Origin: Ferrovibrio terrae
GTDB taxonomy: Bacteria > Pseudomonadota > Alphaproteobacteria > Ferrovibrionales > Ferrovibrionaceae
Length of the DNA: 64,000 bases
Assembly: GCF_007197755.1 (NCBI RefSeq)
Contig: NZ_CP041636.1
Span: 2,764,001-2,828,000, forward strand
Direction of reading: 5' to 3'
The notes beneath the pieces were generated by a model. It ran no database searches. It saw only the letters and a program-made list of their open reading frames with translations, and had not been told where the DNA came from. Below, piece by piece: positions 45,359-50,460 of the stretch. Position numbers and translations under genes: made by a program. The first letter of the stretch is position 1. The number at the start of each line of letters is the position of its first letter.

Positions 45359-46765
45359 TCAGACAACCCGGAAATTCTTGAACTGCCACGGATCGTCGCG
45401 GTCGATGTCTTCCGGGAACAGATTTTCGCGATCCTGCAGCGGCGTCCAGTCACTGTATTCACCGGCCATCTCGCCCAGATAGGGACGGCACACGTCCATG
45501 ATACGGGCGTGATCGAGTTCGTCGGCTTCGATCAGGCCGCGGTTCGGGTTTTCCATCGCCCAGACCAGGCCAGCCAGCACCGCCACCGTCACCTGCAGCG
45601 AGGTGGCGTTGTTGTGTGGCGCCAGTTTGCGGGCCTGTTCGATGGTCAGGCGCGAGCCATACCAGTAGGCGCCCTTCTTGTGGCCCATCAGCAGCACGCC
45701 GAGTTCATCCATGCCGCTGGTGATCTCGTCCATCATCAGGCGCTTGCGCGACTGCATGTCCCAGTTCTTGCCGGCCACTTCATGCACCGACAGCACGGCG
45801 TCGTCGCAGGGATGATAGGCGTAATGCACGGTGGGACGGTAGGCCACCTTGTCGCCCTGCGTCACGCTGTAATAGTCGGCGATCGAGATCGCTTCGTTAT
45901 GCGTGATCAGGAAACCGTGGAAGGGACCCTCCAGCGGAGTCCAGGTGCGCACCTTGGTGCTGGCGCCCGGACGCAGCAGGTAGATCGCCGCATCGCAGCC
46001 GAAATCGTGGCGACGGCCATCTTCCGGCAACTGCTTCTCATGGCTGCCCCAGCCGAGTTCGGCCGGCTGGCAGCCTTCGCCGACGAAGCCGTCGATCGAC
46101 CAGGTGTTGACGAATTCATCGCGTGCCTTGGGCGTGTTCGACACCTGGGTGTCGCGTTCGGCGATGTGGATCACCTTGACGCCCAGCTCTTTCGCCAGCG
46201 CGCCCCAGCCGGTGCGGTCCTTCGGAACAGTTGCAGTCACGCCGGTATCCCTGGCGATCTGCAGCATCGCGTCCTTGACGAAATGCGACACCAGGCCCGG
46301 ATTGGCGCCATGCGTCAGCACGGCGGTCGGGCCGCCCTTGTATTTTTCGATCAGCGTGCGGGCAGAATCGCGCAGCGCGTAGTTCGACCGCTGCGACGGA
46401 GTCTTGCCCGGATCGGTATAGCCGCCGGCCCAGGGCTCGATGCAGGTATCGAGATACATGGCGCCCAGCTCCTGCGCCAGTTCGATCAGGGCCACGGAGG
46501 AGACATCGACCGAGAGGTTCAGCAGGTAATCGCCCTTGCCCAGCATCGGCTGCAGCACCTGGCGATAGTTGTCGCGGGTCAGCGCGATCTTCTCGAACCG
46601 GATCTTGTATTCGTCGGCCACGTCATGGCCGCGCTCTTCCGCCGTCACAATCGTGATCTTGTCCGACGGCATGTCGATATGGCGCAGGATCAGGGGCAGA
46701 ACGCCCTGGCCGATGCTGCCAAAGCCGACCATCACCAGGCGGCCGGAAAACGACACATGCTTCAT
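45359..46765 (-). CDS. hss: homospermidine synthase
   Basis: 468 aa. NAD site GRLVMVGFGSIGQG (residues 8-21) and a C-terminal catalytic domain typical of Hss (VDVSSVALIELAQELGAMYLD, HGANPGLVSHFVKDAML). It makes sym-homospermidine from two putrescines with NAD. ATG at 46765 (GTG just before it at 46768) is preceded by GAGGAG. It is downstream of the decarboxylase in the same orientation (71 bp apart), the natural pathway order. Confidence 0.9.
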   Translation of the reverse strand: MKHVSFSGRLVMVGFGSIGQGVLPLILRHIDMPSDKITIVTAEERGHDVADEYKIRFEKIALTRDNYRQVLQPMLGKGDYLLNLSVDVSSVALIELAQELGAMYLDTCIEPWAGGYTDPGKTPSQRSNYALRDSARTLIEKYKGGPTAVLTHGANPGLVSHFVKDAMLQIARDTGVTATVPKDRTGWGALAKELGVKVIHIAERDTQVSNTPKARDEFVNTWSIDGFVGEGCQPAELGWGSHEKQLPEDGRRHDFGCDAAIYLLRPGASTKVRTWTPLEGPFHGFLITHNEAISIADYYSVTQGDKVAYRPTVHYAYHPCDDAVLSVHEVAGKNWDMQSRKRLMMDEITSGMDELGVLLMGHKKGAYWYGSRLTIEQARKLAPHNNATSLQVTVAVLAGLVWAMENPNRGLIEADELDHARIMDVCRPYLGEMAGEYSDWTPLQDRENLFPEDIDRDDPWQFKNFRVV

Positions 46766-46836: not shown

Positions 46837-48069
46837 CTAGGCGATAGCGTAACCCGGGGTTTCGAGCAATGGTGCGTCGGCCACTTCCACCAGTTGTCCA
46901 CGGTCGAATCCGTTAAAAGCCGTGCGCAGGGTTGCCCCATAGGCGCCCAGCTGCCCGATTTCGATCCAGTCGCCCTCGGCAATATCCTCCGGCAGCCAGA
47001 AACCGCCGTCCATGCGGTCCAGGCTGTCGCAGGTCGGACCGAACAGGGTGAAGCGTCGCAGTCTCGCGTCGGTCCGGCGCACCGGGCGCAGCGGGAACCG
47101 CCAGTTCAGGCTGCCGGCATCGGCCAGGCTGCCGTAGACGCCGTCGTTTATGTAGAGCGCATCGCCCTTGCGGGCCTGCACCTGCACCACGACAGACGCG
47201 CCCTGCGCCACCAGCGCACGGCCCGGCTCGGCCCAGATTTCGGCCGGCGCCAGATCGCCCAGACGCTCGCACAGCGCAGCCGCGCCGGCATCGATCTCGG
47301 CCATGAAGGCACCAAGCTGCGGCAGGTCGTCCTCCGGCGCATAGGCAACCGGGAAGCCGCCGCCGACATCCAGCATATCCAGCTTCACGCCGGCCGCGAC
47401 GGCCACGTCGCCGGCCAGCGCGATAGCGGCCGACCAGCGGGCGGGATCGGCACATTGCGAACCGACATGGAAGGAGATGCCCAGCCGAGCAGTCACGCCG
47501 CGCGCACGGCGCAGCAGGGCCGGCGCGTCTTCCGGCGCGATGCCGAACTTGCCCGACAGGTCGAGCGCGGCGTTGCCCTTGGGCAGCGCGAGGCGCACGA
47601 TCAGGCCAAGTTCTTCCGTCGGGCCGGTTTCGGCCAGGATTTTGTCCAGCTCGGCTTCGCTGTCGATGGCGAAGTCGCGCACGCCATGCTGATGCCAGGC
47701 CGTGCGGATGGCCGAGCGCGCCTTGACCGGGTGCATGTAATGGATGGTCGCGTCCGGCAGCACCTGGCGCACCAGCGCGACCTCGGCCGGAGAGGCGCAG
47801 TCGAAGGCGCGCACGCCGCCGCGCCACAGCGCGGCCAGCACGCGTGGGTCCGGATTGCACTTCACGGCATAGAGCGTGCGGCCCTCGAAGGCCTCCACGA
47901 ATGACCGTGCAGCAGCCGTGATCGCCGCCGGCCGCAGGCAGTGCAGCGGCTCTTCCGGGCGCAGTACTGCAACCACGGCATCGACCATGGGCAGGGCATC
48001 GGCGGAACGTCGTCGCGAAACGTCGCGACGCAACGGGGAAACGGCAACGCGCAGGCGGGACGCGGTCAT
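46837..48069 (-). CDS. ornithine decarboxylase (group IV PLP-dependent)
   Basis: 410 aa; ATG at 48069 with GGAGG 8 nt before. PLP lysine motif TLYAVKCNPDPRVL (about 65-78), SFHVGSQC (about 205), GGGFPVAY, EPGRALVA and the substrate-site GPTCDSLDRM near 345. It decarboxylates ornithine (perhaps lysine or arginine) to putrescine for homospermidine synthase. A leader with a small ORF and hairpins precedes it (48091-48385), suggesting attenuation by polyamine or ornithine. Confidence 0.86.
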   Translation of the reverse strand: MTASRLRVAVSPLRRDVSRRRSADALPMVDAVVAVLRPEEPLHCLRPAAITAAARSFVEAFEGRTLYAVKCNPDPRVLAALWRGGVRAFDCASPAEVALVRQVLPDATIHYMHPVKARSAIRTAWHQHGVRDFAIDSEAELDKILAETGPTEELGLIVRLALPKGNAALDLSGKFGIAPEDAPALLRRARGVTARLGISFHVGSQCADPARWSAAIALAGDVAVAAGVKLDMLDVGGGFPVAYAPEDDLPQLGAFMAEIDAGAAALCERLGDLAPAEIWAEPGRALVAQGASVVVQVQARKGDALYINDGVYGSLADAGSLNWRFPLRPVRRTDARLRRFTLFGPTCDSLDRMDGGFWLPEDIAEGDWIEIGQLGAYGATLRTAFNGFDRGQLVEVADAPLLETPGYAIA

Positions 48070-48090
48070 CCGCAAATCCTCCAAGACGTC

Positions 48091-48114
48091 AAAACACACC
48101 GCTCGAAAGCGGCG
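48091..48114 (-). terminator. terminator-like hairpin just before the decarboxylase
   Basis: On the minus strand, CCGCU-UUCG-AGCGG (48099-48112) extended by two pairs, a UUCG tetraloop hairpin, followed by UGUUUU (A-run 48091-48094 on the plus strand). It lies in the 5' leader about 22 nt before the decarboxylase start, so readthrough would be needed for expression. Confidence 0.5.
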
Positions 48115-48208
48115 GTTAAAAGCGAATTTTGGTGGAATGCTGCCGGTCTGGCTCGCCGCCCATGCAAAGATTGCCGGGGCGGGTCGTCACCTGAGGCCGA
48201 CAGGTCGG

Positions 48209-48226
48209 GGAGCTAAACCAAGCTCC
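48209..48226 (-). promoter_or_regulatory. hairpin over the leader ORF stop codon
   Basis: Arms GGAGCT (48209-48214) and AGCTCC (48221-48226) with a 6-nt loop, perfect. The TAG stop codon of the 10-codon leader ORF falls inside this hairpin, so a ribosome reading the leader would melt it. Confidence 0.4.
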
Positions 48227-48245
48227 GTGTATGCCTGAACAACAT
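48213..48245 (-). CDS. 10-residue leader peptide of the decarboxylase
   Basis: ATG at 48245, TAG at 48213-48215; product MLFRHTRSLV. A perfect Shine-Dalgarno (AAGGAG at 48252-48257 read on minus) lies 6 nt before the ATG. Such a strong site before a short ORF, inside a structured leader, suggests a regulatory peptide whose translation controls downstream expression, as for SpeFL in enterobacteria. Confidence 0.5.
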   Translation of the reverse strand: MLFRHTRSLV

Positions 48246-48358
48246 CGTCAGCTCCTTCAAGGCACCAACCCACGAGGCTGGCTCTCCGAAAAGGACGCGT
48301 GCGTCGTTGCTTGACCGGAATGGCCCTGGGCACGTGCGACCTGCGTCTTGAGATGTGC
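48230..48358 (-). ncRNA. speF-like leader RNA of the decarboxylase
   Basis: The leader from about 48358 (predicted start of transcription) contains a hairpin AGCCAGCC...GGTTGGT (about 48262-48282), CTCAAGACGCAGG near the 5' end, and GCCTTGAAGGAGCTGACGATG at the leader ORF. These words and their order recall the alphaproteobacterial speF RNA element reported before ornithine decarboxylase genes; the match is from memory. A predicted promoter lies directly upstream. Most likely the regulatory leader of the decarboxylase message. Confidence 0.5.
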
Positions 48359-48385
48359 ATTTAAAGCAAATGCGCCGCTGTGCAA
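48358..48385 (-). promoter_or_regulatory. predicted sigma-70 promoter of the leader
   Basis: On the minus strand, -35 TTGCAC (48380-48385) and -10 TTAAAT or TAAATG (48358-48364) with a 15-16-nt spacer. Transcription from here would begin near 48355 and include the whole leader. Modest match. Confidence 0.35.
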
Positions 48386-48412
48386 GTGATAATTCGGCCG
48401 TCGCCGAAAATG

Positions 48413-49303
48413 TCACATTTCAGATGGCAGCAGCGCGAGATACTCGTAGACCAGTGTGGCGGCGGCGAGTGCGGTGATCTCCGACTGATCGTAGGCCGGC
48501 GCGACTTCCACCATATCCATGCCGGCGAAGTTCAGGCCGCCGCAACTGCGCAGCAGCGCCTGCGCCTGCCAGGTGGCGAGGCCGCCGATTTCCGGCGTGC
48601 CGGTGCCGGGCGCAAAGGCCGGATCGAGTGCGTCGATGTCAAACGTGAGATAGGCCGCCTGCGCACCGACGACGGCGCGGATACGTTCGGCGATAGCCGC
48701 CACGCCCTGCTGATGCACATCCTGCGCGCTCAGTACGGTGACGCCGTGGCCCAGCGTCCAGTCCATCACCTCGCGCTGCACCGGCGAGCGGATGCCGATC
48801 TGGATCATGCGCTGCGGATCGACGATGCCTTCGTTGATCGCATGATAGAAGCAGGAGCCATGGCCGTAGGGCTGGCCGAAACTGTCGGGCCAGGTGTCGA
48901 CATGCGCGTCGAAATGCACCAGCCCGACCGGGCCGTGGCGTTTGGCCAGCGCGCGCAGCAGCGGCAGGGCGATGGAATGGTCGCCGCCCAGCGTGATCAG
49001 GTGGCGGAACCGCGCCGCCTGCTGCTCGATCAGCGCCATGCTGGCGGGAATATCGCCCAGCGCGATCTCGAAGTCGCCGACATCCGAAACCATTGCGCTG
49101 ACCGCGCGACGGGTCAGCGGGTGATCGCCATCGACCAGCATCTTGCTGGCGCGGCGGATCGCCTCCGGGCCAAAGCGGGCGCCGGGCCGGTTGGTGGTGG
49201 CGATATCGAGGGCAATGCCGGCGATGGCGACCGCCGGATCGGCGTCGCGTCGCGTGATGCCGAGAAAGCCGCCGGGCAGGGCGAAGGTGGGGATGCCGGT
49301 CAT
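48413..49303 (-). CDS. speB: agmatinase/ureohydrolase
   Basis: 296 aa; ATG at 49303 is preferred over ATG 49345 because the product then begins MTGIPTFALP, as in agmatinases. Mn2+ ligand motifs: LGGDHSIALP (about 116), VHFDAHVDTW (about 138) and FDIDALDPAFAPGTGTPE (about 217). It removes urea from agmatine (giving putrescine) or a related guanidino acid. It is divergent from a second ureohydrolase and upstream of the decarboxylase region. Confidence 0.8.
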   Translation of the reverse strand: MTGIPTFALPGGFLGITRRDADPAVAIAGIALDIATTNRPGARFGPEAIRRASKMLVDGDHPLTRRAVSAMVSDVGDFEIALGDIPASMALIEQQAARFRHLITLGGDHSIALPLLRALAKRHGPVGLVHFDAHVDTWPDSFGQPYGHGSCFYHAINEGIVDPQRMIQIGIRSPVQREVMDWTLGHGVTVLSAQDVHQQGVAAIAERIRAVVGAQAAYLTFDIDALDPAFAPGTGTPEIGGLATWQAQALLRSCGGLNFAGMDMVEVAPAYDQSEITALAAATLVYEYLALLPSEM

Positions 49304-49422
49304 GGTCCCTACTTGAGGGGCGGCAGGGCGAACGTCAAGGGTCATCAACCGGGTGACAACGTGCTTGTCTAGCAGAGGCGGTGTGACGCAAAGTCGTCAC
49401 ATGGCAGCCAGAGGTAGGTAAC

Positions 49423-50460
49423 ATGGACAAGGCAAAGCTGGACGCGCTACGGCAGAAATATGCGGCGGCCAAGGGCGGCGATATTTTCGACCCGCATTTC
49501 GCCAAGGTAGCGGCGCAGGTTTTCGTCGATCCCGAACAGCGCAAATGGCCGTTCGCCGATGTCGCCACCTTCGTCGGCGCACCGTATCGCCCGGTGAAGG
49601 CCGATGCCGATTTCGCCGGACTGGATTGCGCGCTGGTTGGCGTGCCGATGGATCTGGGCGTCACCAATCGCGCCGGCGCGCGACTGGGTCCGCGCGCGGT
49701 GCGCGATGTCGAACGCATCGGGCCGTATGAGCATGTTCTGAAACGCGCGCCGCTTGGCGAAATCAGCGTGGCCGATATCGGCGATGTGCCGATGCGCAGC
49801 CGGTTCGATCTGGCCTCCTGCCACGCCGATATCGAGGCCTATTACAAACGCATCCGTGCGGCAGGCGTGATCCCGCTGTCGGTCGGCGGCGATCATTCCG
49901 TCACGCTGCCGATCATGCGGGCACTCGGCGCCGGCCGGCCGCTTGGCATGGTGCATATTGATGCCCATTGCGACACCAGCGGCGAATATGAAGGCACCAA
50001 GTTCCATCACGGCGGCCCGTTCCGGCAGGCGGTGCTGGATGGCGTGCTGGATCCGGAACGCTGCATCCAGATCGGCATTCGTGGTGCTGCCGAATATCTG
50101 TGGGAATTCTCGCTCGACAGCGGCATGACCGTGATCCATGCCGAAGAGATCGACGGTATGGGCATTCCGGCCGTGATCGAAAAGGCGCGCCGTGTCGTGG
50201 GCGACGGCCCGGTCTATGTCACCTTCGATGTCGATGGCCTCGATCCGGCCTTTGCGCCGGGCACCGGCACGCCGGAAGTGGGCGGGCTGACGCCGCGCGA
50301 GGCGCAGGCGATCCTGCGCGGCCTGGCCGGTCTCGATATCGTCGGCGGCGATGTGGTGGAAGTGGCGCCGCAGTATGACGCCAGCACGGTGACGGCGCAG
50401 GCTGCCGCGCAGATGCTGTTCACGCTGCTCTGCCTGGTGGCGATCCGCAAGATCAGCTAG
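49423..50460 (+). CDS. second agmatinase/guanidino-acid ureohydrolase
   Basis: 345 aa. It has an N-terminal extension of about 60 residues (MDKAKLDALRQKYAAAKGGD) before the ureohydrolase core. Mn ligands in SVGGDHSVTLP, VHIDAHCDTSG and FDVDGLDPAFAPGTGTPE. Related to but distinct from the protein encoded by 48413-49303; guanidinobutyrase or guanidinopropionase are possible alternatives. ATG at 49423 follows AGGTAG. The stop overlaps the convergent dehydrogenase stop. Confidence 0.8.
   Translation: MDKAKLDALRQKYAAAKGGDIFDPHFAKVAAQVFVDPEQRKWPFADVATFVGAPYRPVKADADFAGLDCALVGVPMDLGVTNRAGARLGPRAVRDVERIGPYEHVLKRAPLGEISVADIGDVPMRSRFDLASCHADIEAYYKRIRAAGVIPLSVGGDHSVTLPIMRALGAGRPLGMVHIDAHCDTSGEYEGTKFHHGGPFRQAVLDGVLDPERCIQIGIRGAAEYLWEFSLDSGMTVIHAEEIDGMGIPAVIEKARRVVGDGPVYVTFDVDGLDPAFAPGTGTPEVGGLTPREAQAILRGLAGLDIVGGDVVEVAPQYDASTVTAQAAAQMLFTLLCLVAIRKIS

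Follow-up and report, generated by a model that had tools for sequence, protein, structure and literature searches.

Genes and leader features of the ornithine decarboxylase locus

The window, i.e. the whole stretch of 64,000 nucleotides that was analysed, belongs to a genome of 4.26 Mb in one contig and includes an ornithine decarboxylase-like gene (ODC) followed on the same strand by a homospermidine synthase gene (hss; Table 1). The top PDB match of the ODC protein is lysine/ornithine decarboxylase 2plj, and no NCBIfam model matched it at its cut-off. Related proteins carry titles such as Acetobacteraceae, Rhodospirillales and Alphaproteobacteria. A gap of 343 nt separates ODC from an agmatinase-family gene upstream. 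Near ODC and hss there is also a second agmatinase-family gene at 49423-50460 on the plus strand, divergent from the first (48413-49348, minus strand); this second gene scores below the cut-off of PRK02190 and above that of TIGR01230. Elsewhere in the genome lies a second ODC paralog (G000:C1:3855103-3856206), ~34% identical to the window ODC.

Table 1. Genes, RNA helices and sequence signals at the ODC locus, with positions in the window.
Feature	Position	Strand	Basis
Homospermidine synthase (hss) gene	45359..46765	-	PDB homospermidine synthase match, E 2.4e-171
Ornithine decarboxylase-like gene (ODC), fold type III	46837..48069	-	Pfam PF02784, PF00278
ODC Shine-Dalgarno UUGGAGGA	48077..48084	-	sequence
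UUCG-loop hairpin	about 48096..48116	-	hairpin here in window, L002 and L003, stems changed
UCCACCAA, candidate partner of ODC Shine-Dalgarno	48129..48136	-	minimum-energy folds
Further conserved block, possible stem CUGUCGG / CCGGCAG	48140..48203	-	alignment of 4 sequences
Hairpin with leader-ORF stop codon, GGAGCT-UGGUUU-AGCUCC	48209..48226	-	
Leader ORF MLFRHTRSLV, ATG..TAG	48213..48245	-	sequence; 3/3 genus genomes with this gene
Whole element: P1, core, P2, P3, SD, first leader-ORF codons	48228..48347	-	covariance model R1, 104.5 bits
Shine-Dalgarno GAAGGAG = P3 3' strand	48252..48258	-	sequence
Hairpin within P3, GCCAGCC..GGGUUGG	48265..48282	-	fold; A4 double changes
P3 5' strand CUUUUCGG, anti-Shine-Dalgarno	48286..48293	-	fold; SD pairing
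P1 3' strand GCGUC	48294..48298	-	
Core 3' side GCAACGACG	48302..48310	-	
P2 hairpin GGCC-AUUCC-GGUC	48313..48325	-	fold; partner permutation 0/300
Core 5' side CGCACGUGCC	48329..48338	-	near-invariant
P1 5' strand GACGC	48343..48347	-	pairs 48294-48298
Sigma-70-like promoter, TTGCAC ... TTTAAATG	48358..48385	-	sequence
Agmatinase-family gene	48413-49348	-	

A preliminary description of this leader had listed a promoter, a 10-codon ORF preceded by AAGGAG, a hairpin at the stop codon of the ORF and a UUCG hairpin, all of which are present where it placed them. It missed the conserved RNA that lies upstream of the ORF and the pairing of the ORF's Shine-Dalgarno sequence (SD). The promoter elements TTGCAC (48380-48385) and TTTAAAT (48359-48365), both on the minus strand, recur in the same arrangement in L002 and L003. 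A promoter-like arrangement was found upstream of 43 of 131 unique elements as compared with 3.6 in shuffles, by a strict pattern that leaves the window's own promoter unscored. From this promoter the RNA would start at or just 5' of helix P1.

The AAGGAG motif lies 6 nt upstream of the leader-ORF ATG. The ORF, its SD and the stem of the stop-codon hairpin are kept in all three genomes of the genus that carry this gene (window, L002 and L003), where the peptides read MLFRHTRSLV, MLFRHIWSLG and MLFRHIRSLV. The stem letters are invariant among the three, and hence indicate conservation rather than covariation. In a set of 29 short leader ORFs, the mean energy of the stop-codon hairpin was -4.9 kcal/mol vs -2.35 kcal/mol for shuffled sequences (z -5.7), with 11 of the 29 rows no better than 30% of their own shuffles. 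Segments offset downstream gave -4.27 at 20 nt, -3.71 at 25 nt and -1.7 to -3.3 beyond. Stop codons of short leader ORFs thus tend to lie in a hairpin as judged by the shuffle control, the offset control being less clear. Pairing of the 3' arm of this hairpin with the leader SD was rejected (mean -10.6 vs -10.5 kcal/mol shuffled). The whole leader folded alone is weakly unusual (z -1.65; 11 of 200 shuffles equally good).

Between the leader ORF and ODC, the block 48140-48203 can be aligned in the window, L002, L003 and L068. Our reading of this alignment suggests a possible stem, which in L002 would be formed by GCCGAUCC and GGAUCGGC. Further downstream, the UUCG hairpin is present in all three genomes of the genus and is followed by UGUGUUUU, UGAUUU and UGUGGUUU; in the window, the UGUUUU after it ends at 48091. 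A scan of 2.2 kb for terminator-like sites found 2 vs 1.2 expected, with the UUCG hairpin no better than chance, and the U-run is not conserved, so that the hairpin is a weak candidate for an intrinsic terminator. When the window and L003 are folded at minimum energy, the ODC SD pairs with UCCACCAA and the UUCG hairpin is enclosed; the fold of L002 is different. The hairpin may therefore be part of a fold that pairs the ODC SD rather than a terminator.

A conserved RNA element upstream of polyamine genes

In related genomes, ODC orthologs are preceded by a block of the form GACGC..CGCACGUGCC..GGCC..GGUC..GCAACGACG..GCGUCCUUUU..hairpin..GAAGGAG, located 5' of the leader-ORF site. Covariance model R1 was built from 15 ODC-linked sequences, including that of the window, and the genome search with it was open to all neighbourhoods. 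It gave matches in 67 of 385 genomes of the class, under 32 family labels. An extension of this model, R2, gave 26 matches in the 18 of 18 family genomes, and matched 35 genomes, all of the window's class, in a phylum sample of 398 whose non-class share is not stated. For titled relatives of the window ODC, which include those of Acidocella aminolytica, A. facilis and A. aromatica, R1 matched at 17 of 21 loci; two of the four missed loci start within the gene, and the other two are from deltaproteobacteria.

Of 86 loci drawn from the class search, 80 have ODC or hss within 700 nt downstream (ODC of the paralog type, 49; ODC of the window type, 24; hss, 7). In L120 the element lies upstream of a SAM decarboxylase gene followed by a spermidine synthase gene, and three loci (L088, L096 and L125) are cut by a contig end. 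L082 and L107 have a good element match with no polyamine gene seen downstream; as read by eye, the element in L082 precedes a glutamine-amidotransferase-like frame. In the genome under study the element precedes both ODC paralogs, and at the second its SD is followed directly by that gene's own ATG. The element has the layout of a riboswitch, i.e. a conserved structured domain directly 5' of pathway genes together with a plausible expression platform.

The proposed helices were examined in alignment A4, which has 100 distinct rows and, being fitted by the covariance model, leans towards that model. There, 96.0% of cells are standard pairs, 17 of 24 pairs carry double changes, and not one of the five covariation measures was reached in 500 shuffles. 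The inner hairpin helix of P3 has double changes in 6 of 6 pairs. An anchor parse of the hits, in which the pairs of the model were not used, reduced 160 hits to 129 unique elements after identical ones were merged and four (L104, L124, L126 and L127) with an incomplete or unrecognised core were dropped. Among these, P1 occurs as GACGC/GCGUC (68), GCCC/GGGC (13) and AGACG/CGUCU (12), with rarer types such as GACGU/ACGUC and CCGUC/GACGG found once each and some elements lacking a convincing P1. The core sides CGCACGUGCC and GCAACGACG are identical in 94 of the 129; among the remaining elements, pairs change from U-A to C-G and from G-C to A-U in a compensatory manner.

When pairing partners were permuted, the scores fell modestly, from 6.52 to 6.23 for P1 and from 6.90 to 6.28 for P2, and in either case none of 300 permutations reached the observed value. 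For 92 unique pairs of the U-rich strand of P3 with the next downstream SD, the mean energy was -14.3 kcal/mol, as compared with -12.8 kcal/mol after permutation of partners (0/300) and -9.8 kcal/mol after shuffling of bases (0/100). Kinship of the sequences weakens all these permutation and shuffle tests, for P1, P2 and P3 as for A4. Eight elements folded singly were little better than shuffles (z +0.26 to -1.74), and most of them gave similar P1 and P3 helices. The strand CUUUUCGG also sits after P1 in the manner of a short U-tract. The window leader is read as a conserved RNA whose predicted P3 can hide the SD of the leader ORF, not that of ODC.

Relation to speF and ar45

The leader lies where speF is located, upstream of a COG0019-type ornithine decarboxylase gene in an alphaproteobacterium, and the preliminary description had pointed to speF, for which a search with RF00518 was the check. 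This model had no match in the window at gathering (37 bits), none in 48000-48450 at E up to 10 and none across the genome at E up to 0.001. Hence, membership of the window leader in the Rfam family was rejected. In place of the conserved 3' bulged stem-loop of speF (~80 nt), the window has the leader ORF. Likewise, the ar45 model (RF02347) finds nothing in the leader, whether at gathering (40 bits) or at E up to 10. Searched at gathering, the window has no match to any Rfam family, and 20 short-type loci gave no match to RF00518 or RF02347.

The kinship itself was recovered through the 5' domain. RF00518 is found in 11 of 289 genomes of the class. R1, which contains no RF00518 loci, was run on ten fetched loci of that family (L031-L040): nine were detected at E of about 0.01 or lower, and one at E 0.27. 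The window element has the core domain of ar45, and in 5 of 20 loci (L167, L168, L169, L160 and L161) Rfam calls ar45 over P1, core and P2 in addition to speF; in all five, ar45 ends 7-8 nt 5' of the RF00518 start. The other 15 have neither ar45 nor speF at E up to 0.01. As judged by these overlaps, the core of the element is the 5' portion of the speF leader of rhizobial type, a region filed in Rfam as the 'sRNA' ar45. The Rfam small RNA family and the Rfam leader family would then be neighbouring halves of one leader. We take ar45 to be the SmrC45/SmelC706 RNA of S. meliloti, given the name and a length of 148 nt.

The speF RNAs of RF00518 and the window leader share the 5' core, the COG0019-type gene downstream, the alphaproteobacterial hosts and, after the core, a U-rich strand, a hairpin and a GAAGAGG-like strand. 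The window differs in three respects: no match to the 153-position Rfam model, a P1 of GACGC/GCGUC in place of GCCC/GGGC, and an SD that serves a short ORF. With ar45 the element shares the P1-core-P2 domain, as covered in the five rhizobial-type loci; in contrast to it, ar45 is filed as an 'Alphaproteobacterial sRNA', a small RNA, and its model does not match the window leader. The 'extended' speF element has a conserved sequence and stem in its 5' part, and both are represented in the window, by the R1 matches and the compensatory P1 types; Corbino et al. 2005 (PMC1273637) describe that element as having a stem of this kind at its beginning, close to where transcription starts. From these comparisons, the window leader is a divergent relative within the speF kind, which has been an orphan riboswitch candidate since 2005.

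In the literature searched there is no report of the short form before hss and speD/speE, of SD gating of leader ORFs or of ar45 and speF being united with these two; part of the core is possibly in print (Greenlee et al. 2018, an update of speF as cited by PMC7266159). It likewise gave no description of a leader ORF in alphaproteobacterial ODC or hss leaders, and the text of PMC13293326, on homospermidine in S. meliloti, does not contain 'leader' or 'riboswitch'.

Predicted gating of start codons and a possible polyamine switch

The start codon that follows the element SD was surveyed in 134 elements, among which near-duplicates remain (132 are distinct by their first 90 nt, and L038 is counted twice). 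In 35 of them (31 paralog-type, 4 window-type) it belongs to the gene itself, and in 80 to a separate ORF. These 80 leader ORFs precede ODC of the paralog type (42), ODC of the window type (26), hss (7), speD (1) or no assigned gene (4). Of the others, one has an ORF running off the sequence and 18 have no ATG by the rule used. The start gated by this one RNA thus appears to be that of an enzyme in some cases and that of a tiny ORF in others.

SpeFL of enterobacteria is an ornithine-sensing leader peptide encoded by a short ORF before an ornithine decarboxylase gene. The position of the window ORF is similar, and a like role for its 10-residue peptide, sensing ornithine, had been put forward. 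In the genus g165, the closest by ODC identity outside the window's own genus among the genomes examined, L068 has an 11-codon ORF after the element SD, and L070 and L085 start ODC directly. Within the window's genus, retention of the ORF together with its SD and the stem of the stop hairpin was borne out, whereas residues vary even there and two of the three g165 genomes lack the ORF. No SpeFL-like conserved peptide was found in the window group, and other branches differ. Sensing by the peptide was accordingly not supported, and the constant part is the RNA with its SD; unlike in the SpeFL system, what is conserved lies 5' of a poorly conserved peptide.

Other branches have regular features towards the end of the leader ORF. 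All 21 occurrences of AGTA[TCG] within the final 60 nt of 39 leader ORFs that precede paralog-type ODC are in frame 0, and there is none in the 60-nt stretches past the stop of the same 39. Several of these ORFs (e.g. L170, L176, L081 and L075) end in ..RKNPLSSI or ..SSM. In 15 of 16 Acetobacteraceae-type leaders the ORF includes ATG CGA AGT. The ORFs of L191-L204 and L208, before Acidocella-type ODC, encode peptides whose N-terminus varies and most of which share an end like MRSPRITA. In the Acetobacteraceae group, with L204 and L208 left out, codon positions 1, 2 and 3 have 174, 220 and 185 differences. As position 3 is not more variable, the constraint appears to be on nucleotides rather than on the peptide, and conservation at the peptide level was rejected for this group. 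A 14-codon leader ORF associated with hss occurs in L087, L088, L090, L076, L096, L097 and L126 (in L088 and L096 the sequence ends before the gene is reached). All 7 peptides have G3, A7 and R14, and H4, P8, P10 and R11 occur in 6 of 7. Synonymous differences there are 46/162 vs 10/126 in the stretch past the stop. L071 and L103 were left out of this count, as their register or length differs, and the control past the stop further leaves out L088 and L096, which are cut by contig ends.

Comparison establishes the homology of the 5' domain to speF/ar45, the helices, the SD pairing, the association with polyamine genes and the leader ORF. On this basis, the element is probably a cis-regulatory RNA of the polyamine pathway, an orphan riboswitch candidate that gates translation of the leader ORF. 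Switching, a metabolite signal, its sign and coupling of the leader ORF to ODC may be inferred, with a pathway metabolite, i.e. putrescine, homospermidine or spermidine, as the favoured candidate signal. The occurrence of the core under 32 family labels, and of hss and SAM decarboxylase/spermidine synthase among the genes, points to such a signal and not to ornithine alone. The 5' domain (P1, the near-invariant core and P2) resembles a ligand-binding aptamer, begins near the putative transcription start, and would respond to the signal by setting whether P3 covers the SD. Since P3 directly follows this domain and pairs the next SD, the state of the leader would decide whether ribosomes start. 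In some genomes the gated start codon would be the enzyme's own; in the window, it would open the 10-codon ORF with its stop codon inside a hairpin. Translation of that ORF may let RNA polymerase and ribosomes proceed to ODC, or may open the ODC start, the SD of ODC itself possibly being paired as well. P1 and P3 barely overlap in the window, and thus a switch between them is not evident.

The main rival is transcription attenuation, in which P1, core and P2 with the U-tract act as an intrinsic terminator, so that transcription stops short of the gene when the 5' domain folds. It appears unlikely and is strongest for speF-type loci. The leader RNA of S. meliloti is known as a discrete species, SmrC45/SmelC706 (PMC2780559, PMC2873474, PMC2573895, PMC7143759), reported as 181 nt for SmrC45, with its 3' end put at a U-run after a hairpin (PMC2780559), and 148 nt for SmelC706, listed with RF00518 (PMC2873474). 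The ar45 match ends within a U-run in the two loci read (L167 and L168), and 12 of 13 paralog-type leaders without an ATG by the rule used, mostly of the speF type, have a run of six T no more than 22 nt from the core. However, in L167, where both ar45 and speF are complete, the run at that place is just UUU. The window has no more than CCUUUU after P1, and T runs in nearly all other groups are 1-5 long, apart from two paralog-type uORF leaders with 6; what is conserved instead is the pairing of the SD by P3.

A nascent peptide that senses ornithine or another metabolite, stalls the ribosome and controls access to a terminator or Rho, as in the preliminary description, could account for a leader ORF after 80 of 134 elements, the in-frame AGTA[TCG] and ATG CGA AGT codons, the constant residues of the hss peptide and its excess of synonymous differences. 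Given the variability of the window peptide within its genus, the lack of a leader ORF at this place in two of three g165 genomes and the roughly equal variability of codon positions in the Acetobacteraceae group, such sensing is rather improbable. Binding of the core by a protein, for instance an RNA-binding regulator or Hfq together with an sRNA, without direct ligand binding, is least probable of all and would be surprising, as the core is strictly conserved between varying helices in the manner of aptamers. It would accommodate the co-precipitation of SmrC45 with Hfq in S. meliloti (PMC2848018) and the report of Corbino et al. 2005 (PMC1273637) that A. tumefaciens speF RNA did not bind any of six metabolites (ornithine, lysine, diaminopimelate, putrescine, cadaverine and spermidine), a result that also counts against the favoured reading.

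The favoured reading, a polyamine-responsive RNA that gates the leader ORF, can be extended to a two-step switch, which is possible though doubtful. One aptamer-like class, common to two ODC families, hss and SAM decarboxylase/spermidine synthase, would gate leader ORFs whose decoding adds a second, ribosome-based check by way of the in-frame AGU codon or the hairpin that holds the stop codon. If so, speF would have stayed unsolved in part because Rfam splits off the sensor as an 'sRNA' and because the gated start is often not that of the enzyme. Control of polyamine biosynthesis genes would be shared with the spermidine riboswitch, a SAM-I variant (PMC10853860), from which the window leader differs in that the window gave no Rfam match at gathering; the text of that paper makes no mention of 'speF' or 'homospermidine'. 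The element offers compact test constructs of about 95 nt that include its SD.
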